Shown: piece by piece, positions 4,483-62,412 of the stretch
Position numbering within the stretch: the stretch's first letter is position 1
How the letters are laid out: each line of letters starts with the position of its first letter
Source of the DNA: Fragilariopsis cylindrus CCMP1102
Lineage: Eukaryota > Bacillariophyta > Bacillariophyceae > Bacillariales > Bacillariaceae
DNA: 64,000 nucleotides
Direction of reading: 5' to 3'
NCBI GenBank assembly: GCA_900095095.1
Contig: FMBT01000292.1
Coordinates: 62,001 to 126,000, forward strand
Made by a program: the position numbers and the translations under genes
Notes under the pieces: generated by a model
Told to the model about the DNA's origin: nothing
Databases searched by the model: none
Seen by the model: only the letters and a program-made list of their open reading frames with translations

Positions 4483-5439
4483 CTACCAGTTATTCAGTCC
4501 AAAATCAATTCCAGTCTCTTTTTCATTTTTTCGTCTATCCTTGTAAACATCCAATTTTTTCTTTCGTTCAACTCGGTCGGAGCCTGCTTCTGCTATCTCT
4601 TTGGCTTGGGTAAAGAATTCATCCACAACATCCTGAGATTCTTCCTGAGCGTCCTCAATCGGATCTGTAAAATATCTATTGCCCAATCCTGCATGCTCTC
4701 CTCCTATTTGGATTTTTGGGATTCCGTTTGCTCTACGCCATTCATTTGAGTCGCGTAGAGAATAAGAACAACCGCAATATTCTTGCTTGTAGAATTTGTT
4801 TTCTGCAGATATCTGATATTTTCTCAATGTCATCGTATCACTTGACCAATCCTTATGCCAATATTGTATTCCTTCGTAACGATCAGCTGCTCTAATGCCT
4901 GAATCGTCTACTTGCTTTGCGTCCTTCCATCGAGAGGTGGCGTTGGTCGTAGCGATGGCATCAAAACCATGTTCATGAGCGTAAAGTGCTGTTCGTTCCA
5001 TCCGCATATCGAAGCATTCTGTACAGCGCCCGCCGCGTTCTGCATCAAACTCCATACCCTTCATACGGGCGTACCAATTGTCTGCATCATGATCGCAATC
5101 AACGAATTCGATCGCAAGACTCTTCGCAAATTTCTTATTTTCTTCCTTCCTTATTTCATATTCTTTTTTGGGGTGAATGTTGGGATTGTAAAAGAAGATA
5201 GCAACCTCCAATCCAGTTCTTTCTGCATAACTAAGCATTTCTTCTACCATTGCACCACTGCATGGAGCACAGCAACTGTGTAATAGGATACGAGATATCC
5301 CTTTTGGAACATCAGCCGTGTAAAGACCATCTTTTCCATTTTCCGACATGCGCTCTTGAATTCTTTTGCTTGCGGCGACAGCCCATTCAGGAGCGTTCGA
5401 GGGAAGTGGTGCTCCTTCACTGTATTTTAATTCTGGCAT
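4483..5439 (-). CDS. queH: Epoxyqueuosine reductase QueH (DUF208 family)
   Basis: QueH reduces epoxyqueuosine at the wobble position (34) of GUN-anticodon tRNAs to queuosine, the last step of the bacterial pathway. The 318-residue product carries the family's cysteine sets: CCAPC at residues 56-60, CTEC at 139-142 and CGC at 222-224, of the type that binds a 4Fe-4S cluster and a second metal, plus the family segments FYNPNIHP, DADNWYARMKGME and ATTNATSRWKDAKQV. It has about 50 residues before the core and about 80 after it, both longer than typical bacterial QueH. The start is the first ATG (5439-5437); the frame runs a little upstream but only to a TTG. No signal or transit peptide is visible, suggesting a cytosolic protein. 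It lies on the same strand as, and 3.3 kb downstream of, a gene ending in a QueA domain. The family call is secure; activity is inferred. Confidence 0.93.
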   Translation of the reverse strand: MPELKYSEGAPLPSNAPEWAVAASKRIQERMSENGKDGLYTADVPKGISRILLHSCCAPCSGAMVEEMLSYAERTGLEVAIFFYNPNIHPKKEYEIRKEENKKFAKSLAIEFVDCDHDADNWYARMKGMEFDAERGGRCTECFDMRMERTALYAHEHGFDAIATTNATSRWKDAKQVDDSGIRAADRYEGIQYWHKDWSSDTMTLRKYQISAENKFYKQEYCGCSYSLRDSNEWRRANGIPKIQIGGEHAGLGNRYFTDPIEDAQEESQDVVDEFFTQAKEIAEAGSDRVERKKKLDVYKDRRKNEKETGIDFGLNNW

Positions 5440-5858: not shown

Positions 5859-8255
5859 TCATTCTATTATCTTACCAAAAAATTTGTTTGCAACGATAAT
5901 TTTTGTTCTACACTCTGGACATTTCATCTTTAGCTTCTTTAGTCCTTGTTTTGTTGAACATATTTTGCAAAGACAAGGGTGACCACATGGTATAAGAACA
6001 ACGGCGACTGGTCTTTCCATACAGACTACACACATTTTCTGACCTGGTATAGTTTCTACTTCGTTGTTGGTTCGAGTGGCTGACGTCACAACTTGACTTG
6101 GGGTATTTGACATCACAGGGCAAGCAATCTGTGTTGGTGGGTCTAGTGCGTGACGAGTTCGATTGGTACTACCTCTCGGTAATTCACGTGGTCTTCCTGT
6201 CGGAACAATACGACGATGGGGGCGACGAATAACTTTGTACGTTATAACAAACTCTGGATAGGCCTGAAATTGATTCATAGTAGAAAAAACACCTCTGCCG
6301 GTGACAGTAGAATGATATACAAGAGGACCGACTAATCGTGGTAAATTGACTTCATCTCTACCTTTGATCCTCCCTAACCCTACTCTCGACAGTACTATAC
6401 TTTTCGTACTGGCGCTTCTATGGGCATAATGGTCTGCAAACAGTGCCGAGCCTGAAAATTTTATCTCATCGACAATGCTTGGGATTACTTTCGCGCAGTT
6501 TTGGTAGAAACTTTCAGGCGAATTAAGGAGGCTCTCAGGAGAATAGTTTCGAGTCCCATGGAACAATCGTCTCTCATTCGGATTCGACCAATTGTCAGTT
6601 GCAATGTCTTCACAACAACTAGCGTATGCATCCCACATGGACTGCAACTGAACCGCATATATAGATATGATTTCGGTCCATTGGATATCCATTCCCCCTT
6701 CTGTTGAGAACAGAAGATCCAGTACCAGTTGTCGTTCTATTCCCTCAGTGAGTGGTACCATCATTCCTATGTCGAGATTCCAAGTCACAGGTACTGGCAA
6801 TGGTTTTCTTGGTGAATTGGTATGTATAGGAAAAGTAGGCATAGGTATATCATGTGTAGGTATACGTATCCTCTCTATAGGTGCTACAAAAATACGATCA
6901 GGTTGTTGACAGTCGATGATAGTACAATTTGGGTTTACTAGTTGACCAGGACAGTAGTTGGAAGCATCTTTGCTGTAAATGACTCCCTCGGTGACGATTT
7001 TTCTCGTTGTCGTATCACCATGAAAAAAATCCAACATTGATGTTGGACCCACCTGTAACTCGTACTTATTTTCTGCTCCGATACGACAGCATATGGAGTT
7101 GGGGGCAGAATTGTTTCGACTTGGAAAGGCAACTTCTGTGTATTCTGCATCAGCATCTAAACGTATCACGACACCAACACTTCCCGGACTCCCATCGGCT
7201 TCGCAGTCATTCCAATCGCGCCCACGTTGTACAAACATACCCAACTGAATATTATCAATTGTTACAGGTGCACCGGATTGGGCGGAATGAGCAGCTGTTA
7301 AAAATTGTGCTACGAGAGGGCTACCATCATGTCTTAACAGCTTTTTGAGCTGAGCTGGCGTCCCACGTTTACTAGGATGAGGATCAAGTAAAATGTTGAT
7401 AATATCTCGTAGTTTATCAGAGTAACCAACATTCGCTGATCCCCCCGCTTCAGGAGGAGGAAGCCACGGAAGGCAGACTTGAGGTAGATTTAGAGCAGCG
7501 TCGGCATTTTGTTGCTGTATTATAAATTCGCCAATTGTTTGTTCACCCTCAAAATCTACCATTCTTTTGCAACAGACCAATTCAAATAGAATACACCCGA
7601 GTGCAAAAGCATCGATTTTTTCTGGCTGTAAGCCAGTGTAGTTGTCACGATTATGTGCATCCAGGAGCTCGGGTGCAGCAAACAACTTGGTGAATGCTTG
7701 CCCTGCTTCTTCTCCCGAAAAAACAGCACTCCCAAAGTCCGAAAGTACAAGTCTTCCGCCTACATCTCTATTAACTAGGACGTTCGACGATTTAATATCG
7801 TGATGGGCAACGCCTTTAGAATGAGCGTATGCCAAAGCGTCTGATAATTGTAGAGCATAGTAAAGAATTCTACGTTCAGCATAAGGTTCTTTTCTTGATT
7901 CAATTTCTTCGGCCAAGGTGCCTCCTCTTATGTACGGCATAACTATACAAGCAAAGTTACGGCCACGAAACCAGTCTTGAAAATTAACAATCGATTTTCC
8001 GTCATCGTTTGTACAGTCAAATACGGCGTTCACTTCTCGCTTAAATAATTCGTAGATTTCCTCTGCATCATCATCAAGAGATATTCGTATCAGCTTCAGA
8101 GCAACGTGACGACCTGATTCTTTCTTCGCGAGAAATACACTGCCAGAACCTCCGTGACCAAGACATGCAACCTTTTGAAAGTTTCTATCAAGCTCCTCCA
8201 ACTCTATCAGAAGCTCCTCCTCCTGCTGATGGCCCGCCATCGTTTCTGGTTCCAT
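5859..8255 (-). CDS. Protein kinase - MIB/HERC2 - PARP-like - RING fusion protein
   Basis: A single-exon 798-residue protein with four recognisable parts. (1) Ser/Thr protein kinase, about 28-305: glycine loop GHGGSGSV (33-40), Lys54 in VALK, catalytic HHDIKSSN (151-158, so HRD is HHD), DFG at 173-175 and APELLD. (2) MIB/HERC2-like region, about 338-463: GMFVQRGRDWNDCEADGSPG then a weaker second copy around YCPGQLVNP. (3) PARP-like domain, about 515-675: RLFHGT (His566), SGSALFAD and PEFVITYKV (Glu668). (4) C-terminal C3HC4 RING, 742-782 (CVVC, CGH, CKIC, CPEC). The domains suggest a signalling enzyme coupling phosphorylation, possible ADP-ribosyl chemistry and ubiquitin transfer. In the PARP part the Tyr of the usual YFA motif is Leu605. 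The ATG at 8255 is preceded by a Met-poor region and fits the kinase N-terminus. Domain calls 1 and 4 are secure, 2 good, 3 probable. Confidence 0.85.
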   Translation of the reverse strand: MEPETMAGHQQEEELLIELEELDRNFQKVACLGHGGSGSVFLAKKESGRHVALKLIRISLDDDAEEIYELFKREVNAVFDCTNDDGKSIVNFQDWFRGRNFACIVMPYIRGGTLAEEIESRKEPYAERRILYYALQLSDALAYAHSKGVAHHDIKSSNVLVNRDVGGRLVLSDFGSAVFSGEEAGQAFTKLFAAPELLDAHNRDNYTGLQPEKIDAFALGCILFELVCCKRMVDFEGEQTIGEFIIQQQNADAALNLPQVCLPWLPPPEAGGSANVGYSDKLRDIINILLDPHPSKRGTPAQLKKLLRHDGSPLVAQFLTAAHSAQSGAPVTIDNIQLGMFVQRGRDWNDCEADGSPGSVGVVIRLDADAEYTEVAFPSRNNSAPNSICCRIGAENKYELQVGPTSMLDFFHGDTTTRKIVTEGVIYSKDASNYCPGQLVNPNCTIIDCQQPDRIFVAPIERIRIPTHDIPMPTFPIHTNSPRKPLPVPVTWNLDIGMMVPLTEGIERQLVLDLLFSTEGGMDIQWTEIISIYAVQLQSMWDAYASCCEDIATDNWSNPNERRLFHGTRNYSPESLLNSPESFYQNCAKVIPSIVDEIKFSGSALFADHYAHRSASTKSIVLSRVGLGRIKGRDEVNLPRLVGPLVYHSTVTGRGVFSTMNQFQAYPEFVITYKVIRRPHRRIVPTGRPRELPRGSTNRTRHALDPPTQIACPVMSNTPSQVVTSATRTNNEVETIPGQKMCVVCMERPVAVVLIPCGHPCLCKICSTKQGLKKLKMKCPECRTKIIVANKFFGKIIE

Positions 8256-8772: not shown

Positions 8773-11700
8773 TTACTTCGTTTCTTTCGGTCGAGAGAAA
8801 TAACAAGCATCTCCGTAGCTAAGAAATCTGTATCCTCTATCCTGGGCGTTTTCATATACACTTCGTACTTTCTCAGGGTTGCCAAGGAAGGCAGAGACCA
8901 AAAGCATCAGAGTGGAATCTGGTGCATGAAAGTTTGTGATTAGGTCTTCCACAACGCGAAATTTGTAGCCCGAAAAAATCATGAGACTGGTCCTACCAGA
9001 AATGGTTTCAGCGTGTGATTTATCATTGATCACAGCCTTTAGGGCATCGACGGCTGTGATATTCAGCCCATCGTTTGCCAGAAGCAACTCCAAGTCACTC
9101 CATTCGTGTTGACCGAGAATCATCGCATTGTCATCGCCAACTGCGTTAAAGCCAAGGTCCCTATGTCGACATTCCAATATCTTCTTAACGCCGCACCAGT
9201 AAAGGCTTTCTAAAGTTCTAGAACTAGTCGTACCGACAACAACTATGCGTTTTCTAGATTCCAGTGACTCAATGATTCGTTGAAGCTCGCCGACAGAGAC
9301 AACGAAGGTTTCCCCGTGCATTGCATGATCACGAACGTCTTCGGCGACTACTGGCTTGAAGGTTCCAGCTCCAACGTGAAGGGAAAGATAACTGATATTA
9401 TCTTGACCGATCTTCGCTAATAGTGGGTCGGTGAAGTGAAGGCCAGCAGTAGGGGCTGCAACGCTACCTTCCCCAGATGCGTACACATTATTGTATGCAT
9501 GTTCATCCGACGCTTCCGCGTCACGGTCTAAATATGGCGGAATTGGAACCGACCCTACACTGCGTAGTAATTCAGATACACTATGAATATTTGTATCTTC
9601 TACCAAACACTTTACCGTACACTCAGTGCCATTTCCATTGCTCTTTTCATCTTCGATCCATGGTCCTTTGACCGCCACAACCACGAACGATGCTGATCCT
9701 TTCACGTTCTCCTCGAAAATGTCTCCTACTCGGACTCCTTCTTTGCGGACCATAACAGTTAGTTCAGCATCTGCGCATGTCTTGTCGAGATTTTCGCCTA
9801 AATCGAGAACCATCATTTCAAAGCCACTCTTTTTGTTGGAGTCTTCGACGCTATTTACACTCAATCGAGCGTTTACAACTTTGCTTTCGTTAAAAATGAC
9901 ATGCGCATTACTCAAAAATGGCAAAATTGAATCAGAAAAATTATCAAAGTAACGCACATTACCATCTGTGTCAACATTCAATAACTTAGAGCTTCCTCTG
10001 GGCTCGGCAGGGTATTTGGCAATTGAATCGAATCGTAGGTTGTATGTAAAATCACTCATCTTGATCTTTTCACCTTCCTCTTTCAACATAATTTCATTCA
10101 CCTTACGAGCAGCCTCGTAGTCTTTATCTGTGAGCTCGTTTGCCTCAAATGAAAAGTATTCTAAGTCAACATCAACTCCATTTACACATTTGTGCGTGAA
10201 GGATAAATTTGCGTGATGGTCCATTTCGGAACTCATGGTATTGACTTTGTTCGCGAAACTTAATGCTGCATCATAATCTACAAAGTGAATCGATCTGTGA
10301 AGGGATGAACTCTTCTTCTGCCATGTCGCCTCAACATCTCCAGTCTTTGATGCACGCTGCCATGCGGCTCGGGCAACATTCTTGTACAATTGTGCGACAC
10401 TCAACGGTCCAACACCACCAGGAACAGGAGAATACTGTTTCACTGCTTCATTTGATGTAAGGTTATCTTCAAAACCAAAGTCCGAGAACAAACTATCATG
10501 ATCCTCACTAAATGTTGTACCGATATTAACTACAACAGCATCTTGTTTCAACCAGCTTGCATCAAGTACACCTGGTTCACCAGCACACGACACAACAATG
10601 TCCGCAAATCCTACCATGATCATAAGGTCTTCTTTAGAAGTTTGGGAGTGGGCGACAGTTACGACGGCATTACGAGCGCGAAGCATATGAGCCATAGGAG
10701 ATCCGACAATACGACTTCGTCCAACCACGAGAACATGTTTGCCTTTCAGATCGATATTATAGTTGTCTACCAATTCCATGGCTGCTGCTGGTGTGACAGG
10801 AGGGAGTGGCGATGACGAAGCATCTATTTCGATCTGTCCGATAAAATGTGCCCCATCAACGTCGCGATCGATCTCTATGGCATTATAAGCACGACCCGAA
10901 TCGATGTGATCTGGAAGCGGCCACATTAACTGAATACCATCAAAGTCCTTACTCTTGTAAATCTCGCTGAGTAATTCCTCGGTGGTAGTGATATCTGGAA
11001 GATTAATTTCCTTTACGTTGAAACCATTGCTTTCGCCAGTCGATGTTTTGTTAAACCAACTGTTTTGGTTGTTGCTGTATATTTTGATGCGTCTATCACT
11101 GTGCGTGTACCTGGAAAGTTTCCCTACCGTAATAACAGCTAAAGACGGCTTACGGCCATATGCCTTGTAGAATTCTACTGCGGACTTTCTTGTATCGTCG
11201 AGCGATATTCTAGCCAATTCATTTCCCGCTAGAATCTTTGGTGATGGTTGCCAAATAGAAGGATCGAAACCGAAATTCGAATCGACGTCATTATCATCGA
11301 GGAGCCATGTATTTGCTTCGTTCCATCTCTTAGCATCGATGACGCCATATCGATCCCCATGGAAGGTATCCTTAACATAATCTGCACACAAACCAACACT
11401 TTGAATTGAATAGTCCTTGGATGAATCCCAATGATCGTTTGATTCGTTATCTAAATCTAATATACGTTTAGCTTCCTCTACTCGAATCGAGGCATCTTCA
11501 ATGTCACGAATTGCCATCTCCCATCCGGTAAAGGTTGCATCCAAGAATGCTTGAAGGATTTCACGTCTATCTTCTATTAGATCTTCTTCCGGTGCAAACA
11601 ACATTTGTGAATAGCCTAATTTAGCACCATTCAATCCTTCGAGTGGGATACAATTAACAGTAGCACCGTGCCGTTCAAGTGTCGGTACTTCCGTCGTGGT

Positions 11701-12327
11701 GTACGCTTGAATCAAATCAAATTTACCATCAAGTAAATCCGTATTCTTAGTAGCACGTGGACTAGCAATCACCAAATACTTCTTTGAGCTGTCTTCGTTC
11801 AGAATTCTTTCCATCAGTGACACCGTATCTTCATGTACACCAACAATATCTTTATCGTCGTTACTGTTACTGTTACTGTTACTGCTGTCGTCCTCAATGG
11901 ATGCTAAGCATAATGGTGATGTTCGAAACATAGATGCAACAGCTTTTAATTTCAGGTTTGGATTTTTGAATAGGACAGGTGTAAAAATATTCTGTTCGAC
12001 GCTACCAATAACGACATCATCATTATAGTTTTCTAAGCAAGAACGATGATTTCTAACTCTTTCCATTTCAAGTCCAACAGGACAAATCGGTAAAAAATTC
12101 AAATTGTCGATACCAGCTTTTTCATATAAACCTTCCGTCATAGCACAAGCAATTCCAGCGAACTGAGGAGACATATAGTAGTCTAATTGGATTGCAATAC
12201 TACTTTTGTTACGACGAAGATGAAGAAGATGTGGAATTTGAGTTGTCGTTAAGGCATGACGACCGAGACCGAGACTACTACGGCCATATTTCGATGACGA
12301 AACTTGATTTGAAAGGAATCGAATCAT
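8773..12327 (-). CDS. queA: THI5-like - FolD-like - PCD-like - QueA fusion protein
   Basis: One uninterrupted 1184-codon frame. Residues 1-41 are Ser/Arg/Leu-rich without acids, like a mitochondrial presequence. About 42-345 is an NMT1/THI5-like solute-binding fold (YYMSPQFAGIACAMTEGLY). About 365-660 is FolD-like methylene-THF dehydrogenase/cyclohydrolase (GIQLMWPLP, DVDGAHF, VVGRSRIVGSPMA, VPGGVGPLSVAQL), but the catalytic YxxxK appears as Y407-THS-D411. About 675-750 resembles pterin-4a-carbinolamine dehydratase (SSEMDHHANLSF with His704-His705), lacking the third His of the usual TH motif. Residues 757-1180 are a complete QueA: SVAAPTAGLHFTDPLL, LHVGAGTFKPV, VVVGTTSSRTLES, LITNFHAPDSTLMLLVSAF and YRFLSYGDA. 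QueA transfers and isomerises ribose from SAM onto preQ1 in tRNA, giving epoxyqueuosine. QueA and FolD calls are secure, THI5 and PCD good; a gene-model fusion is unlikely because no stop intervenes. Confidence 0.9.
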   Translation of the reverse strand: MIRFLSNQVSSSKYGRSSLGLGRHALTTTQIPHLLHLRRNKSSIAIQLDYYMSPQFAGIACAMTEGLYEKAGIDNLNFLPICPVGLEMERVRNHRSCLENYNDDVVIGSVEQNIFTPVLFKNPNLKLKAVASMFRTSPLCLASIEDDSSNSNSNSNDDKDIVGVHEDTVSLMERILNEDSSKKYLVIASPRATKNTDLLDGKFDLIQAYTTTEVPTLERHGATVNCIPLEGLNGAKLGYSQMLFAPEEDLIEDRREILQAFLDATFTGWEMAIRDIEDASIRVEEAKRILDLDNESNDHWDSSKDYSIQSVGLCADYVKDTFHGDRYGVIDAKRWNEANTWLLDDNDVDSNFGFDPSIWQPSPKILAGNELARISLDDTRKSAVEFYKAYGRKPSLAVITVGKLSRYTHSDRRIKIYSNNQNSWFNKTSTGESNGFNVKEINLPDITTTEELLSEIYKSKDFDGIQLMWPLPDHIDSGRAYNAIEIDRDVDGAHFIGQIEIDASSSPLPPVTPAAAMELVDNYNIDLKGKHVLVVGRSRIVGSPMAHMLRARNAVVTVAHSQTSKEDLMIMVGFADIVVSCAGEPGVLDASWLKQDAVVVNIGTTFSEDHDSLFSDFGFEDNLTSNEAVKQYSPVPGGVGPLSVAQLYKNVARAAWQRASKTGDVEATWQKKSSSLHRSIHFVDYDAALSFANKVNTMSSEMDHHANLSFTHKCVNGVDVDLEYFSFEANELTDKDYEAARKVNEIMLKEEGEKIKMSDFTYNLRFDSIAKYPAEPRGSSKLLNVDTDGNVRYFDNFSDSILPFLSNAHVIFNESKVVNARLSVNSVEDSNKKSGFEMMVLDLGENLDKTCADAELTVMVRKEGVRVGDIFEENVKGSASFVVVAVKGPWIEDEKSNGNGTECTVKCLVEDTNIHSVSELLRSVGSVPIPPYLDRDAEASDEHAYNNVYASGEGSVAAPTAGLHFTDPLLAKIGQDNISYLSLHVGAGTFKPVVAEDVRDHAMHGETFVVSVGELQRIIESLESRKRIVVVGTTSSRTLESLYWCGVKKILECRHRDLGFNAVGDDNAMILGQHEWSDLELLLANDGLNITAVDALKAVINDKSHAETISGRTSLMIFSGYKFRVVEDLITNFHAPDSTLMLLVSAFLGNPEKVRSVYENAQDRGYRFLSYGDACYFSRPKETK

Positions 12328-31541: not shown

Positions 31542-32978
31542 ATGAACTTGGATAAAATACACGACGAGGAATTAGAAAGGAAACAACTAAAAATGGTTTC
31601 CCTTCAGGATATTGCGGAGCATCAAGATATTTTCCAGCGCCATTTACTGACTTTCTTATCAAAACAAGAGGTCGGAAGGCTGCAATCTGTATCGAAATGT
31701 TTAAGGTCTTCGTTCGATGACGAGAATTGCTGGAAAGTTCTGTTCCAGCGTGATTTTGGGATCATTGGTAGAGAAGCACCGGAATATAATGCCCACACAA
31801 GGAGTTTTGATTCGTTGAGTGATCAAAAAAAATTCAAAGGAGCATATCAGGAGTGGGCGAAATGGCAATCACAGACTTGTTATGCGATCCAACCCCGACA
31901 TATGGTAATAGCCATTGATATTTGGACTCGTTGTAAAACTATACTAAAACGAAAGAAGTTAACCAAGATTTTGGAGTCCTTAGAACCACCACCCAGCAGA
32001 GAATTTTTTCAACGGGCCGCTGGAAAATTACCATCCTCTCTCGTCGCATTTTATGCTATTCACGCAGGACAATCCTCTTTAACTCCACGCAGCTCCGATG
32101 ATGATTTCTTTGCCGGCTTATTTGGAAGCTACTCATGTTACAACGACTTCTACTCCATGCGGCTATTGCATGTAAATGAATTCTCCTTAGATTCGGTTGT
32201 TAATTCCATCTTCATCGTTGGAATCAATTTGGGTATGCCAAGAAAGTCTTTGGTGATTGATTTTGGAAACAAAGAGAATCCCGATGGTTCTGTGTACATT
32301 ACACAGCCACAATCACACCCACACTTGCCAGGAGTGAGTCGTCATTTGTTTTGCCACAACGGAATCCTGTCATACCTTCAAACTTATGTTGAAAGACTTG
32401 AAAGTGGCATCTATGAGCCCTGTACAATTCATCCTGAATCTCCCCTATCAAGGGGTATCTGTCTATTTCCTGAAAAAGTAAGCGTTGCTGTCACTAACGG
32501 TGTGGAGGTACGAGCTAGTGCTCGGTGGTTTCCTGAACCTGGACATGGTCCTATGAATTTTGGATACAGTATCCGAATTTGTCTAGCAGAAAGTGATTCA
32601 CGTGATGGAGAAGTCTCCTGTCAACTTGTGGATAGGAATTGGGAATTTCATTATGAAGATGGAACAATTAATCGGGTGTCAGGTGAAGGAGCTGTAGGGA
32701 AACAACCTCTTTTTTTTCGACGGAACGATAGAAGTACAGGTTTTATAGACTTAGGACCGGCAGGAAATGGTGAAACGTATACCAATACTGTATTTTCATA
32801 TCAGTCTCAATCAGGTCCTGTTCCAGGTTCTCACTCGCTTGACGTTCTTAAAACTACCAACGCACGCGTTCGAGGGACCTTCAGCTTCCGCCCGGGAAGT
32901 ATACGAAAACCTACAGGACCACTCTTTCTGGTCGATGTTGGAGAATTTCCACTACATGTCGAACTTCCATTTTACTGA
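31542..32978 (+). CDS. F-box protein of FBXO3 type (F-box, SUKH-like, ApaG)
   Basis: 478 residues, single exon. An F-box-like motif at about 33-72 (HLLTFLSKQEVGRLQSVSKC...CWKVLFQRDF) should bind Skp1 in an SCF ubiquitin ligase. The middle (about 130-290) resembles the SMI1/KNR4 (SUKH) region found in FBXO3. The C-terminal part, about 315-475, is an ApaG (DUF525) beta-sandwich: VEVRASARWFPEP, YSIRICLAE, CQLVDRNWEFHYEDG, VSGEGAVGKQPLF and MRGTF-type strands (VRGTFSFRPG). The order F-box, SUKH, ApaG is that of eukaryotic FBXO3, so the role inferred is substrate selection for ubiquitination. ATG 31542 is the first in frame and gives a full F-box. Confidence 0.85.
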   Translation: MNLDKIHDEELERKQLKMVSLQDIAEHQDIFQRHLLTFLSKQEVGRLQSVSKCLRSSFDDENCWKVLFQRDFGIIGREAPEYNAHTRSFDSLSDQKKFKGAYQEWAKWQSQTCYAIQPRHMVIAIDIWTRCKTILKRKKLTKILESLEPPPSREFFQRAAGKLPSSLVAFYAIHAGQSSLTPRSSDDDFFAGLFGSYSCYNDFYSMRLLHVNEFSLDSVVNSIFIVGINLGMPRKSLVIDFGNKENPDGSVYITQPQSHPHLPGVSRHLFCHNGILSYLQTYVERLESGIYEPCTIHPESPLSRGICLFPEKVSVAVTNGVEVRASARWFPEPGHGPMNFGYSIRICLAESDSRDGEVSCQLVDRNWEFHYEDGTINRVSGEGAVGKQPLFFRRNDRSTGFIDLGPAGNGETYTNTVFSYQSQSGPVPGSHSLDVLKTTNARVRGTFSFRPGSIRKPTGPLFLVDVGEFPLHVELPFY

Positions 32979-33593: not shown

Positions 33594-36500
33594 ATGAATT
33601 CGTTAGAAACAAGCGGTACGATGAAGGATAAGGATGGAGACACAGCTGATTCCTCGAAGGTTGATGTCGAAAAATATTTGTCCCACATTTGTAACGCGAC
33701 AAGAAAACTTATCCATGCGGACACAGAAGATAGCGACATCCACATGAAGGTAGAAAATGACGACGACGACGACGAGTTTATGAAAGAAGAGAACAAATGC
33801 TTGAATTCTCTCGATGGATATATCGATGTGATTGCTGAAAATCTATTAAAGGCCTGCAATCCGATGGTTTTGGCGAGTGGTGTTTCTAATTTACCTCCAA
33901 TGGATGATGGTACATTCAATGTTGACGAATATTTGGACCACGAAAACGACAACATTGTTCCGGAAGATTCTGATTTCTTATATAAGTACCGAAGATCAGA
34001 TTATCTGCGTCGTCTTTTGAGAATAATTGCTCCCATTTCTATGGAAGTGACAGCAAATATTTGTTCCACGTTGATGTCTGCTAAGAAACGAAGTAGTGGC
34101 TCCTCATCGTCAAGTGATAATCAGCAGCAAAAGCTTGCGTTTGTACTCTTAATCTCTCATTGGCTACCTGTTGCTCCTCATCTGACACCTATGGTAACAG
34201 AAGTGTTCGCTAGTATCGAAAATCCTTCGCGTGATATCATCCCTGCAAATGGCGATATTGACGTAAAAACTCAACAACAAATGTTTCTGGTTGCCGAAGC
34301 TCTGTACCAATTGTGCTCATTTTTCACAAATAATGGAGAAATATCTACTTTACGCCATTTAAGATGGGACTGGACCTTTGTCTTTAGCATGTTGCATGGT
34401 GCGGGAGATACGATAATGGACGACTCGTCTTTGGTTAACGATACACCTCCTTCTGAGAATGGAATATCTTCTTTCCTTCCTATTGCTCTGAATTGGTTCT
34501 CAGTACGAATACTAACCATGGTGATGGGCTGGAACTCGTCAATCACTAGTACTGTACTGAAAACTCAGAATGTTGAAGATGACCGAGTTCCATGGCAAAT
34601 ACACCCTTGGGAATTCGATCAAGAAGAGGTAGATATGGAGAAGGCATTTTTTCAACGACAGGTATTCCTTTGGAATAATCGTAGTGTTTTCAAATTGCCA
34701 TCCTCTGAGGACATCCAGACAGAGTTACGAATATCTCCCTATCTGTCGAAAGTTGGGTCTGGAATCATTATGTACAAACACGGTACGTTGCGAGGATGTA
34801 TAGATACAACTGTACGTGGCACCAGCGACGGCGATGACGCCAGGGCAAATCAAACTGAAAGTTCGACAGGTGCAGGCAATCTTGTACTCACAGCCACCAC
34901 ATATAGAAATCTATCATTGCTGGGGGCAGCCATGTGCCATTATCCGCAGCCCCCGCCAATTTTGGTTTGTGGTCCACATGGCTCCGGCAAATCAAGCTTA
35001 ATTCGTGAGCTTTTACGATTATGTGGACCGAAAGAATCGCTCATTGAGTTTCATATTGACGAGGAAACAGATTCGAAGACCCTGATTGGATCTTATACGA
35101 CAACTGATGTTCCTGGTGAATTTTCCTGGCGGGCTGGGGCATTAACCAATGCCTCTCGGGAGGGACGATGGGTACTTATTGAAGATCTTGACTGTGTCCC
35201 TGTGGAGATCCAGGCTGCCCTTGCAAAACTTTTTGAAGAAAGGATGATACCACTCGGTAACGGAAAGTATGAACGTTGTCATCCTAACTTCAGGATCTTT
35301 GCTACATGCACTACCAATGCATCAATTGGAGGACGAGATAGACACAGCCTTCGTATTGGGAACCATAGAGGTGGAGGGAAACAGATTTTGAATCCTTCCT
35401 ACTGGAGAAATGTCCATGTCAAGCCTATGCCATATTCAGAGCTGAAAGAGGTTGCAGTGTCACTTTATCCCGACGTACCGATATCCGTGGTTGAATCGGC
35501 CATGACTCTTTTGCAAGCTCTTGATCGAAGTGGGCGTGAGCATACCGTGAATGAAAAAGATGATAATTCTGAGGGAGATAATGCCAATGACGTCGAAAAA
35601 AATGCAGCAAGAGTGACCAAGATCTGGACTGGTGGGAGAATACCGTCTGTTCGGGATCTATTCAAACTTTTATCAAGAATATCCAACGGGATGTGTTTCG
35701 AGAAGAATACACTTTACATCACAGAGGCCCAACGAACACTGTGTATGGCAGAAAGTGTAGATATCTTCATGGCGTCGTGCCCGAATCAGCAAGTTAGAGA
35801 AGAATTTATTGGTTTGGTTGCCGCGCCTGTATGGGGGATAACTGGAGATCTTGCATTCGCGTATATTATGGTTAGAAAACCAACGGTGCTTATGGGCACA
35901 AATTTTTTTGAAATTGGGCGTGCTAAGTTTGATATAACAAAATCCATTGGATACTCCGAAGAGCCTTCCACGACCTTTGCTCAAACAAGTCATGCCTTGA
36001 GACTCATGGAGTCAATAGCAGTTTGTGTCAGGGAAAATGAACCAATCCTTCTTGTGGGCGAGACAGGTTGTGGGAAAACAACAGTCATACAACAACTTGC
36101 CGCATCTTGTGAGAGGACGCTAATTGTCCAAAATCTATCGCTACAAACAGATTCAACAGACCTGTTGGGAGGTTATCGACCCCTTGAGATCCAGAACGTT
36201 GCCAGAAATGTTTACAAGGACTTCGTCGACACTTTCGTATCAAGTTTTTCGCGGAAACAGAACCTAAAATTCCTTCAGTACGCATCTTCAATGCTTGAGA
36301 AGTCAAATTGGAAGAAACTTTCTCAATCTTTCAAAAAGGCGGCACAACTTGGATTGCAAAAGATGAAAGAACGTCAAGAAAACCAGGATATCCTTTTGTC
36401 AGATTCCATGGTAGAAACTTGGCAAAATTTTGCGAAGAAAGCAGAACGATTCGAACGTCAGAGAGTATCCTGTGATGCTGGTCTTGCTTTCGAGTTTGCA

Positions 36501-39500
36501 GAAGGTGCATTAGTGGATGCTATTCAAACTGGAAAATGGTAAGGTCGACGCTCCATAATGTAAGACTAGGTGATAAATTCCGATCCATTTGCTAACAATT
36601 TGTTCTTCTTCTTTCTGCTATTTGTAGGGTTCTACTCGATGAGTTAAATCTTGCTTCCTCTGACACGCTACAACGGCTGTGTGGTCTGTTAGATGAGCCA
36701 ACTGGTAGTCTTACGTTAACAGAACGAGGAGATGACACTGCTATCAGACGACACCCAAACTTCCGACTATTCGCAGCGATGAATCCAGCAACTGATGCTG
36801 GCAAGAAAGACCTCCCATCAAGTATCCGTTGTCGATTTTCAGAGCTTTATGTTGACGAATTACTCGATCCTATTGAGTTAAGACTGGTTGCAGCGCGATA
36901 CCTTGATGGAGTTCTACCTATCAATGGGAATTCCCCCGAACACACAGACATCGTCATATGTGCTGTAGACCAGTACCTACGGTGTCGAGAACTTGCGGAG
37001 ACTACGCTTTCGGACGGAAACGGTCATAAACCGAGATACACATTGAGAACAATGTCGCGCGCTCTCAATGCAGCTAGAACCCTGGTTTTACAGCAACGCA
37101 TTCCTTTACGAAGGGCCATTTTTGAAGGCTTTCAGCTTTCTTTTGAAGGAATTCTTGATACCGGCTCGATAAAAGCTATAAGAAAAATATTGACAAAGGC
37201 TTTTTTGAAAGAAGAGGCAAAGAAAATCGACTTGGACCATCCGGGTAGGAGACCTGGAGGAAAGGATAGTCAAAATGACTACGTAATTATTAAACCATTT
37301 TGGATCAAAGCTGGACCATTGGAGATAGTTGACTGGTCCGAGACTGGAGCAAATGGGAAATCAAAGTTCATTCTTACACCCACAGCTTCAACGAACCTAC
37401 GGAGGCTAGCCCGTGCTCTAGCAACTGGACCGTGGCCAATATTACTAGAAGGACCGACATCGAGTGGAAAGACGACGCTTGTTGAGTACATAGCAGCGAG
37501 ATGCGGGCACCATGTTGTAAGAATCAACAATCATGAGCACACTGACGTTCAGGAATACACTGGATCATTTGCTGCTGATCAGAATGGATCATTATCATTT
37601 CGAGACGGCATTCTTGTGCAAGCGCTCCGGCTAGGACATTGGGTGATCCTGGATGAGCTAAATCTTGCTCCCAGCGAGGTGCTAGAAGCTCTGAATCGGC
37701 TTTTGGATGACAATAGAGAACTATATTTGGCTGAAACAAACGAGACTGTGAAACCCCATCCCAGTTTTCGACTGTTTGCGACACAGAATCCTTCGGGCGC
37801 ATACGGAGGTAGAAAACCTCTGTCAAGAGCATTTCGCAATCGCTTTGTTGAGCTTCATGTTGGTGACATCCCCTGTGATGAAATGTCTATGATTTTGGAG
37901 AAGAGGTGCGGTTGTCCTCCTTCGCACGCCAAACTTCTGGTGAAAATTATGATTGATCTTAGGCACAAAAGAAGTAAAAGCAACATTTTCCTTGGAAAGG
38001 ATAGCTTTATAACACCGAGAGATTTGCTCAGATGGGCTGAGCGCCAAAGTGGATCAAAACATGATTTGGCTGAGCATGGGTATATGATCTTAGCAGAGCG
38101 ACTTCGGTCGGAAGAAGAGAAAAAAATGGTCCGTGACGTCCTTGAGGAACACACTAAGGTAAAAATCGATTTGGAACGACTCTACTATGGTGAAAATTCA
38201 GAAGCGAAACAGCTTCTTGATAAGTCTCTACCAGCGGCCCAGCTTCAAAGCAACCATCTTATTGCATCTATTGCACCAACAAGATCGATGTTGCGACTAA
38301 TACATTTGGTGTTGAATTGCGTGCGACAGAGAGAGCCAGTTCTCTTAGTTGGAGGTACGTAGTATTTTTTGCATGAGTTTTTGTTACGATAAATCATTCT
38401 TCTTTTTCTAATTAAGCGTTTTCTATTTCTTCAGACACTGGTTGTGGGAAGACTACTGTCATCCAGCTGCTGAGTTTTGTGTTGAATCAGACGCTTTATG
38501 CTGTAAATTGTCATGCGACAACAGAGACTTCTGATCTGATTGGAGGGCTTCGCCCCGTACGGGGACGAGATGCAATTAAGAAGAAGATTGCCGCGAAATT
38601 AACAAAGTTGATACAAAAGTGGCCCTACGATGATATGCTCGACGATCTGAATCTACATGAGTACACTCCTGTAGATGATTGTGATACACGAGATTTGGAG
38701 CTGTATGACGTTGAAACAATGGTAGCACTTGCCAAAACCATATCTTCGAGAAGACCTGAAATTTTAGATGAACAATGTACCAATGAGCGTACAAAGAAGA
38801 AGAGAAGAATTATAGAATCGAGCTCACCTAGCAATAGTGACAGTGATCGTTCAGCAAACGATGTAGAATCGCTTGCTATGATTGTGGTGGAAATTGAAGA
38901 GCTTGGACGGCGCTTCAGAGCCCTATTTGAATGGTCTGATGGTCCGCTTGTCAAAGCCATGAAGTCAGGGGAATTGCTGCTTTTGGATGAAATGAGTCTT
39001 GCCGAGGATGCTGTCCTGGAACGACTAAATTCTGTACTAGAACCATCAAGATCACTTGTCCTTGCAGAAAAGGGTGACGATGGCTCGTCAACCATAGGAA
39101 AGGACAATCGCATCATTGTAGCTCATGATCAGTTTCGAATCTTTGCCACAATGAACCCAGGAGGAGACTTCGGCAAAAGAGAATTAAGTCCAGCTTTACG
39201 CAGTCGCTTTACAGAAATATGGGTTCCATCTATCACAGAAAGGAGCGATTTCGAGGTAGTCCTAGGACGATCGTTGGCGCCCAGCATAAGTCAGCAAATC
39301 AATACACAACAATCATCGATTATAGGCTGCATTCTTGATTATGTCGAATGGTTTAATTCGGATGTCTGTGGTGTACCTGCGAGTCCATTTGCTGGTTACT
39401 CTTTGTCTTTGCGAGATATTCTTTCTTGGGCTCACTTTATCGTGGAGGCAAGAAAGTCAAATGCGAACCTCGCAATGTGGGATGCACTATACCACGGTGC

Positions 39501-42500
39501 ATGCCTCATGCATTTAGATGGTCTAGGACTAGGCACGGGTCTAGCTTCTGATGCCTCGACCACCCTCAAGTTGAAAGCCGAGCAATATCTTTTGAGTCTC
39601 GTACCAGATGGGAGTATCTCAAATGTGCGCAGCGTAGACGATTCTTTTTGCATCCAGAATGGGCAGTTTGGCGTGTTCCCATATTTCGTTAACGTTGGAA
39701 AGTCTATCATTCCAGATTCAACTTTCAATATGACAGCTCCGACAACATCTCTGAATGCATTTCGTGTTTTGCGGGCAATGCAATTAAAGAAACCAATACT
39801 TTTAGAAGGATCGCCTGGGGTTGGCAAGACGTCTTTAATCAGCGCTCTTGCATCCGCATCTGGGAACAAACTTGTCCGGATCAATCTTTCCGAACAAACT
39901 GACGTATCTGATTTGATGGGTAGTGATATCCCGGTTGAAAATTCCACAAATAGTGGACCTTCGTTTGAATGGTGTGATGGAGTTTTATTAACAGCTATCA
40001 AAGAGGGCAGCTGGGTCCTCCTTGATGAGCTCAATTTAGCATCACAAGCTGTACTCGAAGGACTCAATAGCTGTCTGGACCATCGCGCAACTATGTATAT
40101 CCCAGAGCTTGGCGAATCTTTTGTCTGTCCTCCAACTTTCCGTGTGTTTGGGGCTCAAAATCCATTAGGCCAAGGAGGAGGTCGAAAGGGCCTTCCGAAG
40201 TCCTTTCTCAACAGATTTACAAAAGTGTTCATTGATGCTCTTACTGATTCAGATCTACGATCGATTGTATCTTCACGTTTCCATTCGTTCTCAGCAGACT
40301 TTGTCAATCAAATTATTGACTTTAACAATGATATTCATAATGAGGTGATAGAGCTGCGGGAGTACGGGTCAGACGGTGGTCCATGGGAGTTCAATCTACG
40401 AGACGTATTTCGTTGGTGCGAATTAATAGAATCAGGTCGATCATCACATATAGCTGGTGCTCGTGATCTTTACTATCAAAGGTTTCGTACTCAAAGAGAT
40501 AGAGATAAGGTGGATAAGACCTTTCAGAAACATTTTGGAAGCTCTTTGGTTCCAGAATGTCCGCCGAAGTTCAAGGTTCTAGATGATACCATACAAATTG
40601 GTGAAACATTGTTGAGCCGTCTTGACCATTTGGGTGAAACACTTCAGACTAGTAGGACCACTATCCGAGAGTCGGACCTACTTTTCTCCCGGCTGATGCA
40701 AATGGAAGCTGTAGCTCGGTGCATCAATTTAAAGTGGCCTTGTCTTCTTGTTGGCGGGACTGGGACTGGAAAGACAACAATGATATCAAACTTGGCAGGA
40801 CTCTGTAATGCGACTCTTGTCGAACATTGTCTCTCACCTTCTTCTGATGTATCAGAACTTGTGGGTGGATTCGAGCAACGCGAAGCTTTGTCAAGAGAAA
40901 TTCAAGTAATTAAAGATCTTTGCATGTTGGCAAATAAGATCTTAATGGCTGACGCATTCCAGTCGAGAAAGTCTAAATGGTGTTGGGATGTCGCAACAAA
41001 ATTGGACAAATACGTAGATGATTGGAATAACTCTAGTCTTTCTTTTGAAGATCAGACCAAGTTACCGTGGGAGCAAGCAACAAAGCTTTCTGAAATACTC
41101 GCAAGTATGGTCGAAGAAAATATCGCTCTTTCTGATTTTAAGACTCGGGTCAATATTATCGATGAAACCGTTCAGGCGCAGACTCATGAACAAAAATCAG
41201 TTCATAAGCAACAGGATTCTGGTCACTTTGTTTGGCGGGATGGTATTCTGGTGGAGGCTCTGTTGAAAGGCTACTGGCTACTGCTGGAAAATGTTAATCT
41301 GTGTCCATCTTCTGTTCTTGATCGATTAAATTCTGTAACAGAACGCGACGGGTTCTTGCTACTCTCGGAATCAGGAACACAAGATGGCGATAATACCAAT
41401 CATACTCATCGGATAATAAAACCACACAAAAACTTCCGGATATTTTTTACGATGAATGCTACAAATGGAGAGATATCACGTGCAATGAGAAATCGTTGCG
41501 TAGAAATTTCCCTACTGGACTCTACAATGCAAAATTCGCTGCACCCAAGTTGTAATTTACCGAACATTCCAAGTCACGATTTGCCAATCGTCTCATCAAT
41601 CTTTTCAAAAGCACAGATTGTCGACTTTCTTAGCATAATGCGCAGCGCTCGAATTCGCTCTATAGAGCTTGCATCTGCAATCATGGAAACATACGCGAAT
41701 GAACGGCTGCAATCATCGGCATCTTTTGAGGACTTACCTTGCTTGAGAAGTTTCTTAGCATCGCTTCGTATCTTTTCGGGTTTGCTTTCTCGAGGTTTGG
41801 ATCCTAGCGCATCGGAACAAAAATTCATTCAAATTTCATTTGAATTCGAAGAATCGGTCATTGCGAATAAATTTGCGACTGAAACTTTCGATACAATCAC
41901 GAACCAAGAGGCTACCCCTTTACCAGGAAATCTTTTACTCAGTTCGGTTGGTAGCGAGGCCTCTTTAACTACCACTTTATGGGAGGCTCGGCTACTACGA
42001 ACTTTTTCAGGAAAGCAATCAAATGTACAGGATGCAATGACAGCTCTCGGTCTTTTTAATGGATCGAAAAATAATCCAAAAACTGATCGATCTGAATTTA
42101 TTGCGCCAGTTTTCCCTTCATTCCATGAGTTGCAATGTATTTTATCACAATTATTCGTCAAAACGAAGTCACTCGAAGAGCTACAAATGAGAGCCTCTAT
42201 CTTATTTGGGTTTCGAAACCCGGTGGCATATACAATCAAGTGGATGTCGTCAGTGCTCATAGATTCGCTCAATCAGCCTGCTCATTATATGGAACATTCG
42301 TCCATCAATGAGTGTAGTAGTCTAATATGGAGACGTCTGCAACAACGTTTTGTTGAAAATGTATGGATTCGGAACTTGGCGAAAAGAGATAGTGTGTTAG
42401 ATTCATCAAATAATCTCACGGTCCTTGAAGCATCTTACTACATTCACGAGAATCTTCTTGATGGATCGGCGGTACCGTGCTCGGTGACTCGTTTGCTCTA

Positions 42501-45500
42501 TCCATTCTTCCTTACAATCGATAATTGGGTAACAAGTATTCTAACCATCAACGATGACACTGATTTGGTAATTTTTTTACCAACACTGAGACTCGTTTTA
42601 GACGAGCGAGACAAACTCTGGACCCTTTTGAAAGAATTGCCGATCAATCTGACCATACTGAATGGGTTTTCTGCCTTCAATGAAAGTGAATTTATTGTCC
42701 AGTGGCAATGGTTAAGAAAAGTGATGCCGACAAATGAGCTTCGAATTCCCCTGGTAGAAGGTTGGCAAAAAATTATTCTATGGATTGACGCTATAGATAG
42801 GGCTATCTTTGGTGGTCCCCGGCCTACTTGGTCTGCTCATAGAATTCGAAAGAAAATGAATATCCCTCTTGTGCCTCGTCGATCCAGGCATTGGGAGGCC
42901 TTTTTCTCGCTCGAGGATCTTTCCCACGGGTGTTCTCTAATGGCGGACGATCGCTTTGATCCATTTAAGAACAATTCGAATCCCATCGATCTTCAGCAAC
43001 TGATGAATTTAGGCCACCCCAGTCTTTACATAACAGACGAGGAAAAGATGCAACTTCTTGCAGCAATTTGTACATCACAGTTGTCGTGGTATAGTAACAA
43101 AGCTAATGAAAGTACATGGATCGACGAAATTGACTTCCCGAAGAAAATGAATGAAGTTTTCGGTAAATTGAGAGGTTCTTTTGAGATTGAGATTGCTTCA
43201 GCTAGGGTAGATTTGGAAATCCAAACCATTGATGCTCAGGTTGAAGCTAAGGTTCTTGATGAATTGAGGGATTTATCTGCCACGACGATATCAAAGATTA
43301 ATGGATATTGCCTTCTCAAAACAAGACTTCTTGACTTTTTCGGAAAGGTTCAAATATCAGCTTTGGCAGAGTTCTGGTGCGTCCACCAGGAAATTGCCAT
43401 ATGTGGTCAACTTTCGAAGCTGCTGTTGGATTCTTCCGATGACGAGAAATGTATCAGTACGGGGCTTCTCTGTCTGATACCAGGGATGAAAATTCTTGTT
43501 GATAATGCAACATTGAAAACTATATGGACAGTAAGCGACATGCGGGCGTTTCAGATGATGATCTGGGCATTGGATGGGAAACCCCCAGAAAACCTATCAT
43601 TGAAGAATTTACTAAGATCTTTGATACCAACTATTCTATCAACTTTGTCCCGCCACTCTTTTACTGGATCATTTATCTGTACAAATTCAATCTCCGCGTC
43701 GTTGGAGATGCCAGATATGTGGACAAGTGACGAAATACAAAGTGATAATTTATTCAATGATAGTGTGCCAGATAGCAATGAATGCATTGTTGGGAATGCA
43801 AGACTTCGTCAGTCAGTTCGTACTGAAATCTTGCTTCGAATGATTGGAGAGCAGCTATCATTCACAAAAGACCATACTACCCTAAAGTTCTACACTATTG
43901 AAAATGCATTACACCGCGAAAGTCAATCGAGAGAGATATTAAGCATGCTCTCAAATTTCTCGATATCCCCATCAAAAGCACGATTGTATACTTATCATTA
44001 TGTTTTATTTGATATCTTGACGGCTGTCAAGGATGTATTCCAAGACCACACCATGGATGCGGTTTTGTGGTTTGTAAAAAATCCACAGAATTTGACAGCT
44101 TCTAGTATAGATCAGATCAGTTCTGCAGGTGAGGATGTCAAGAATAACTTTTTCGGTCTATTTTGGAAGGAATTATTGCTTCCTTTATTGAAAGCTCTCC
44201 ATCTAGCTTGGAAAGTAGATTCTGTCTCGCCAGAATATGGCGAACATTGTTCTCGAGCATCCATTTATCTTGGACTATTGCGCCTGAATCTTTTAACTCC
44301 TTGTACTCCATTGGACCCTGGAAGGGCTCCTCTTGCGAAGGTCTCACTGATCACAAGACAACTTGTGGATATACAGTCAAGACTTACAGCAGTAACACTG
44401 CATAGTGGGTTTGTACAAGGTGATTTTGATCCAGAAACGTCTGAGACGACGTCCCTCCTTGATACAGCTGACAATCTATCGAGGAAGAAGAAATCACAAC
44501 AGAAAAAGGTGATAGAACGAATTGAATCCGCTCCGGCTTTCAGTGAGTTGTTCCGAGAGGCTAAGGAGTTTCTAACCACAGCGTCAGGAAATGCTGCTAT
44601 ACTGGAATTGGTAGAAGCAATTCACGCCGTAAATGCAAAACAAAATGGAGTAGGAAGCACCAAGAGACGTGCCGAAAATTGGCAACGGACTGCCGCCGCT
44701 TTTTGTAGACGACTCTCGACTGACTTTGGCGCATACGAAGACGTTACTACATCTATCATAGATTCTGTTAGAATGATCCAAGATGGACTGTTTGATCTAA
44801 TGCACCAAGAATTGAGTGCAGTTGGGGATATTGGAAATTATTGCGCAGACGTAATTGGGGAGCTACATCAATACCCAATGTCAGAAGATTCAGATTCTAT
44901 CAAATTTCTTTTTGGTGCAACAGGAATGGAAGTGGGAGTAGCGAACGCACGGTTGCTAGAGCTTGAATCGAAGCCGGAATGCTTCAAAACCCTGTCTATA
45001 GCAATCTTAGCACGCCTTTTTCTTAAAAATGAGATTGTTGGACTTGAGAGAGATGAATTATGGATTTGTTCCCGCATATTTGCGGGGCTAACTAATTCAT
45101 GCGATGAATTGGTAGATCGAAAGGAAGACAGCACTTTGGAAGAAATGGAGGAGAGAGCCTTTAGGGAGCAATTTCCTGATCATCGAAAGGATTTTGATGG
45201 TATCCTGCGAGACACATCAGGGGAAATGGATGGAGAGGATGGTATAGTGGACGAAAAGAAAGACATTCCCGATCTTACATGCAAAGATAGGTCTCTATCA
45301 GATACACAGATAGAACTACTGTATCAAATTTATAATGGCATATTTTCTGGGGAAAAAACAATGCAGATCGATTCTATACGAAAGATGGCTTTTCACACGT
45401 CTTACGCCGCTGCTTATGAATTACACAAGACATTTGAAAATACAGACAATTGCAGCCACGGATCAGAGGTGATGGGAGGACACGTCTTTGCTATGTGTCT

Positions 45501-60108: not shown

Positions 60109-62412
<2,304 letters not shown>

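Follow-up and report, generated by a model that had tools for sequence, protein, structure and literature searches.

We report here that a 64,000 bp stretch of the nuclear genome of the diatom Fragilariopsis cylindrus CCMP1102 (bases 62001-126000 of the 1.02-Mb contig FMBT01000292.1 in a 67.9-Mb assembly; this whole stretch is called the window below) carries a gene in which a QueA-type domain, expected to act late in queuosine synthesis, stands in one frame behind three other domains, and that a gene for the epoxyqueuosine reductase QueH lies close by. The reading which we favour, with a probability of roughly 0.58, is that this nuclear-encoded and probably mitochondrial fusion protein contains a captured QueA which would make epoxyqueuosine, that QueH would finish queuosine, and that the N-terminal half of the fusion would work beside QueA. 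The general view is that queuine reaches eukaryotes by salvage only. The presence of nuclear QueA and QueH genes side by side, together with a TGT of bacterial type at another locus, would make the completion of queuosine from preQ1 for organelles directly testable in a major group of marine algae, and the fusion would represent a route by which a transferred bacterial gene obtains expression and targeting, namely by being joined to a duplicated organelle protein. Among the literature matches listed, neither the titles nor the beginnings of the abstracts described this fusion or a diatom QueH.

The original prediction of a single 1184-codon frame composed of THI5/NMT1-like, FolD-like, PCD-like and QueA parts, in this order, proved correct both for the frame, which is open on the complementary strand from an ATG, and for the domains, all of which score above their Pfam gathering scores. 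These are NMT1 (PF09084; aa 107-275, 43.0 bits against 20.5), THF_DHG_CYH (aa 367-491, 44.7 against 32.8) and THF_DHG_CYH_C (PF02882; aa 508-656, 139 against 27), Pterin_4a (PF01329; aa 667-746, 44.0 against 26), and Queuosine_synth (PF02547; aa 758-1176, 262.7 against 25, covering model positions 2-321 of 322). At the base composition of the region a stop-free frame of this length would be expected with a probability of about 10^-33, and none of the other five frames stays open for more than 121 codons. Homology to FolD ends at aa 656 and that to PCD begins at aa 667, while PCD homology ends at 746 and QueA homology starts at 758; gaps of 10-11 residues are too tight for separate genes, and an intron, terminator or promoter at these joins would cut into a domain. 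The linker between NMT1 and FolD (aa 275-367) is longer than the other joins, and here a paralogue, described below, has both parts in one frame. The GC content at third codon positions of the four parts is 32-42%, and that of the two neighbouring genes which were measured is 34-36%. We regard it as confirmed from the sequence that the fusion is a single frame predicted to encode one polypeptide with the order NMT1-FolD-PCD-QueA. The protein begins with a presequence that is of mitochondrial type by a count of its amino acids, rather than by the output of a predictor, and import into mitochondria is probable.

The genome search showed PF09084 and PF02882 to co-occur outside the window on two further contigs, C628 and C93, which carry two alleles (692 and 691 aa; 96.5% protein identity) of a gene with the structure presequence-NMT1-FolD and a stop directly after FolD. 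The N-terminus of this paralogue, MIRFLSNQVSS, is identical to that of the fusion, and a search for PCD or QueA remnants in the surrounding DNA, 9-9.5 kb for each allele, gave chance-level matches only. The fusion shares 71-72% identity with this paralogue (dS about 1.3, dN about 0.2), with a pairwise dN/dS of 0.146-0.155 over 652 codons; by domain the ratio is 0.149-0.171 for NMT1 and 0.115 for FolD, the latter being a rough value as synonymous change is near saturation in this domain (pS 0.69). Free drift of the fusion copy would not be expected to leave averages this low; both copies look constrained, and the ratios point to purifying selection on both NMT1-FolD copies. Since a separate two-domain gene exists in the genome, the fusion can be explained by the joining of a duplicate to PCD-QueA, without recourse to an error of assembly. 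The NMT1-FolD gene (L029, L030) may itself represent a new protein family. No close relatives were found in the viral_contigs collection, either for the whole fusion or for its NMT1 half.

The C-terminal part has the conserved blocks of QueA (GSVAAPTAGLHFT, LHVGxGTF, MHxE, VGTTSxRTLE, TNFHxPxSTL, and RFxSxGD) and is, as judged from its sequence, of the Bacteroidota/Kapabacteria/Ignavibacteria type. An alignment-based scan of the genome_contigs collection gave 583 QueA relatives, of which the best 80, those most similar to the query from the diatom, were analysed; by record title all of these are Bacteroidota, Ignavibacteria or Kapabacteria, with the exception of one unclassified metagenome-assembled genome (L077). 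An insert lies between VGTTSSRTLE and TNFHAPDSTL of the diatom protein, where the stretch from GTTxxR to TN[FY]H measures 93 residues; it measures 72-105 residues in 80 of the 80 rows and 35-54 residues in 35 of 37 viral-contig rows, the other two being unmeasurable. In the 12 rows displayed the insert residues can be aligned with one another, and three solved QueA proteins are without it. As the 80 rows were chosen for likeness to the query, the shared insert is partly a product of sampling. In a careful tree with hand-chosen rows, the diatom QueA and 16 of the 80 insert-bearing rows were separated from 17 of the 37 viral-contig rows with a support of 100/100. Support within the insert-bearing side was weak, and a topology that sets the diatom apart from the 16 bacterial rows was not rejected (p-AU 0.323); the diatom QueA may fall inside or beside these rows, and no named bacterial group is singled out. 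In a broader tree, which used 80 of 113 rows after 5 of the 37 viral-contig rows had been lost, the long partial row L151 spoiled the result. The diatom part thus shares with bacterial QueA of this type the whole-domain match, the motifs and the insert, and differs in that it stands behind three domains, is nuclear, and is at most 40-42% identical. Within the flanks of the same 80 bacterial QueA genes (up to 3 kb per side, less at contig ends; E 1e-3) there were no matches to PCD, FolD, NMT1 or QueH (0/80 each), and no bacterial template for the fusion is therefore seen.

QueH is located 3.3 kb downstream of the end of the fusion, on the same strand and with one kinase gene in between (Table 1). 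One QueA and one QueH were found in the whole genome, both of them inside the window. The diatom QueH keeps the cysteines of the CCxP, RCxxC and YCGC motifs in alignment with the T. maritima protein, and NCBIfam models gave no match to it. It is 39-46% identical to five of six aligned Bacteroidota QueH proteins and 34% identical to the sixth; identity to the T. maritima piece, calculated by another method, is 31%. A common bacterial donor of QueA and QueH was considered and is unsupported, as seven of the 50 genomes from which the bacterial QueA loci come gave a QueH match, one of them a 30-position fragment, and the six usable ones show 34-46% identity.

By homology the terminal steps of queuosine synthesis, TGT, QueA and QueH, are all encoded in this genome. 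There are three TGT genes, and the bacterial-type one, on contig C69, is closer to solved bacterial structures (250.7 bits) than to QTRT1 chains (215.8), while that on C651 prefers QTRT1 (378.5 against 247.3 for bacterial). The assignment of the C69 gene rests on these comparisons with solved structures and not on TIGR00430, which was rejected as a separator of bacterial from eukaryotic TGT after the QTRT1-like C651 protein was found to pass it too (335.1 against 306.75), as does C69. The C69 protein (L031:4445-6244, (-)) has 600 aa, a long N-terminal extension, a hydrophobic start and an AVNAF stretch, and its other haplotype is apparently broken over C418 and C143. A partial TGT match on C306 is taken as QTRT2, and a QNG1-type salvage gene is present on C35/C152. 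A six-frame, exon-by-exon and intron-blind search of the genome gave no match to QueC or QueF, QueD and QueE not being part of it. The original prediction had linked the domains of the fusion through the shared origin of queuosine, folate and pterins from GTP; with QueC and QueF not found, this link is not realised in the genome as tested.

A set of TGT, QueA and QueH without QueC and QueF fits a pathway fed by scavenged preQ1, such as has been put forward for the mitochondria of Chloropicon (PMC12301720). Chloropicon has a mitochondrial set of QueA, QueG, bacterial-like TGT and YhhQ, with relatives in some red algae. Like the diatom it encodes QueA in the nucleus and has a reductase for epoxyqueuosine, a TGT of bacterial-like type and QNG1-type salvage, and preQ1 is the proposed precursor in both. 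It differs in that QueA and QueG have separate gene numbers, whereas the diatom has QueA inside a fusion and QueH as the reductase, and the search (which did not cover QueG) gave no match to YhhQ. The terminal pathway is already published for Chloropicon, and what differs in the diatom is the fusion and QueH. A further parallel comes from the algal and diatom PPR-TGM proteins (PMC4029402), which likewise consist of a transferred bacterial tRNA-modifying enzyme joined to a eukaryotic N-terminal part, although the enzyme is a tRNA guanine methyltransferase and the partner is made of PPR repeats. The same paper (2013) mentions chlamydial-type queuine tRNA-ribosyltransferase homologues in algae and diatoms as data not shown, and one table row of PMC2490706 places a queuine tRNA-ribosyltransferase of chlamydial type under the green and red lineages.

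Under the favoured reading a bacterial QueA would have been captured when it was fused to the duplicate of an organelle protein, from which it obtained its expression and targeting. Scavenged preQ1 base would be put into the tRNA by the bacterial-type TGT; the QueA part would then transfer the ribosyl moiety of S-adenosylmethionine to preQ1 at position 34 of GUN tRNAs with rearrangement to epoxyqueuosine, and the QueH encoded nearby would reduce this to queuosine. The NMT1-FolD half would bind a ligand and NAD(P), a role kept in common with the paralogue, with no canonical FolD, THI5 or PCD catalysis, and probably acts next to QueA and not as its controller.

FolD-type enzymes rely on a Y-x3-K catalytic pair and a conserved Gln, roles assigned from work on the human enzyme. 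No YxxxK is present in the FolD part (aa 361-662), which has SWFNK instead with the Lys kept at the catalytic place, and Met replaces the Gln (GIQLMWPLP against the canonical GILVQLPLP). In one alignment (A6) an upstream Tyr occupies the column of the catalytic Tyr, 10 residues from the Lys instead of 4, so that the spacing is non-canonical whether or not this Tyr is taken. A mixed alignment over the full length put the C-terminal part of the FolD rows in the wrong place and was set aside. Apart from these changes and a 14-15-residue insert, the part resembles FolD/MTHFD in both Pfam domains, the Asp of DVDG, the NAD(P)-site motif GRSRIVGSP (GRSxIVG) and PVPGGVGP. The paralogue has the same active-site changes, and a canonical FolD gene is present elsewhere in the genome (C192, L014). 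The active site of PCD contains three His, two of them adjacent and the third in the strand that precedes the TExD helix; in the fusion DHH is kept, the third His is Phe in FSFEANELTDKD, and Ala replaces the Pro after HH. The NMT1 part is without CCCFC, the motif of the THI5 HMP-P synthase. Its nearest solved relatives by sequence are 4nmy, an ABC-type solute-binding protein (E 4e-4), and 3ix1, which binds formylaminopyrimidine (E 0.01); Phe is found where 4nmy has His, in a very weak stretch of the alignment (0.6 bits), and a three-sequence NMT1 profile gave no significant match among solved structures (best E 0.35). The diatom proteins Phatr3_J33535 and THAPS_6708 share PF09084 and a weak likeness to THI5 and ThiY, and differ in having a signal peptide and, in the part of PMC9544697 available, no mention of a fusion to a folate enzyme. 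Their counterpart in F. cylindrus looks to be, from its hydrophobic start, the gene on C184/C630. According to the same paper, Phaeodactylum mutants without the signal-peptide NMT1 gene, which is a different gene from ours, grow without thiamine (PMC9544697). With the FolD, PCD and NMT1 parts altered in this way, the proposal that the fusion may tie pterin and one-carbon status to tRNA modification is not supported, although a metabolic coupling through pterin or folate is possible.

Several observations weigh against the favoured reading. Clues to the compartment, read from composition or by eye, are in conflict, as the fusion is mitochondrial-like, QueH has no presequence (six acidic residues among its first 42 from the first ATG) and the C69 TGT is plastid-like, its AVNAF after a hydrophobic stretch being what we take to resemble a diatom plastid-targeting site. 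The presequence of the fusion is less constrained than the rest (59-62% identity to that of the paralogue, dN/dS about 0.44 over 37 codons). The preQ1 importer YhhQ gave no match in the six-frame, intron-blind search, in which QueT, like QueG, was not included. Finally, the use of queuine by bacterial-like TGTs is held to be plausible in PMC12301720; in that case QueA and QueH would be without a substrate, and their retention in the diatom speaks for preQ1-tRNA being made. A QueA part which is decaying or acts on another substrate, with no queuosine made, would agree with the long branch of the diatom QueA (2.12), with the absence of QueC, QueF and YhhQ from the search results, and with its scores slightly under two NCBIfam equivalog cut-offs, TIGR00113 (266.4 against 267.45 bits) and NF001140 (284.2 against 324), both of which were passed by three of three Bacteroidota/Ignavibacteria controls; NF002398 (cut-off 588) was passed by none of the four, that is, the diatom part and the three controls. 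On account of the missed cut-offs we name the part QueA-type and not a certified QueA, and its description as a full QueA in the original prediction, which holds for the extent of the PF02547 match, was slightly generous. Against decay stand the intact frame, the presence of all motifs looked for, and the partner QueH kept nearby with its cysteines, and we consider this explanation unlikely.

It is likewise improbable in our view that the fusion is a coupled sensor and enzyme, along the lines of the original prediction, in which QueA activity is adjusted by the NMT1, FolD and PCD parts through their binding of NAD(P) and of a ligand that is a pyrimidine, a folate or a pterin. The low dN/dS in both N-terminal domains after the duplication and the conservation of the NAD(P)-site, PVPGGVGP and DHH motifs would suit such a protein, but the N-terminal half also exists without QueA, as the paralogue, and its constraint needs no coupling; moreover neither FolD nor PCD has its catalytic motifs unaltered, and the alteration in FolD is identical in the QueA-free paralogue. 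We hold as doubtful the related and more far-reaching idea of an organelle QueH-type end of the queuosine pathway with QueA gated by the fused parts, in which a vitamin- or pterin-like ligand would set the wobble modification of organelle tRNAs. That two genes were joined by an assembly error, or that the single frame arose by chance, could be argued from the lack of transcript support and from the separate haplotigs contained in the assembly; this is very hard to reconcile with an unbroken frame of such low chance probability, with the close packing of the last three domains, with third-position GC contents near those of the neighbours, and with an N-terminal half that is 28% diverged from the paralogue and so is no misplaced copy.

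Table 1. Features of the fusion gene and its surroundings (positions in the window)
Feature	Position	Strand	Remarks
Fusion protein, complete open frame	8773..12327	(-)	1184 codons + stop, from ATG
Presequence, aa 1-42	12202..12327	(-)	5 Arg, 2 Lys, 0 Asp/Glu; starts like paralogue
NMT1/THI5-like (ThiY-type solute-binding) domain, aa 43-360	11248..12201	(-)	Pfam core aa 107-275
FolD-like domain, aa 361-662	10342..11247	(-)	14-15-residue insert, altered active site
PCD-like domain, aa 667-746	10090..10329	(-)	Pfam
QueA domain, aa 755-1184	8776..10065	(-)	Bacteroidota/Kapabacteria/Ignavibacteria-type insert
QueH (epoxyqueuosine reductase)	4483..5439	(-)	318 aa from first ATG; PF02677, 191.3 against 23.5 bits
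Protein kinase + RING gene	5859..8255	(-)	between QueH and fusion, same strand; outside pathway

The fusion locus is taken, from its sequence context, as a nuclear locus of the diatom. Bacterial contamination was set aside given the 1.02-Mb contig, the kinase-RING, midasin and ketol-acid reductoisomerase genes nearby, and the silicon transporters in the genome, for which 27 matches were found, all over the cut-off (exon pieces counted apart), compared with a match, below the cut-off, in one of 14 control genomes. The assembly holds haplotype-like pairs of loci, such as C628/C93 and C184/C630. The kinase-RING frame also shows sub-cut-off matches to MIB_HERC2 (21.2 against 33.5 bits) and to a PARP-like domain (E 0.097). 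Further along the window are a homologue of midasin (MDN1/Rea1) that occupies three or more long frames (33594-50931, (+)), a ketol-acid reductoisomerase gene with KARI_N and KARI_C (60109-61440, (-)), and a 478-aa frame (31542-32978, (+)) whose residues 338-391 match an ApaG (DUF525) domain.

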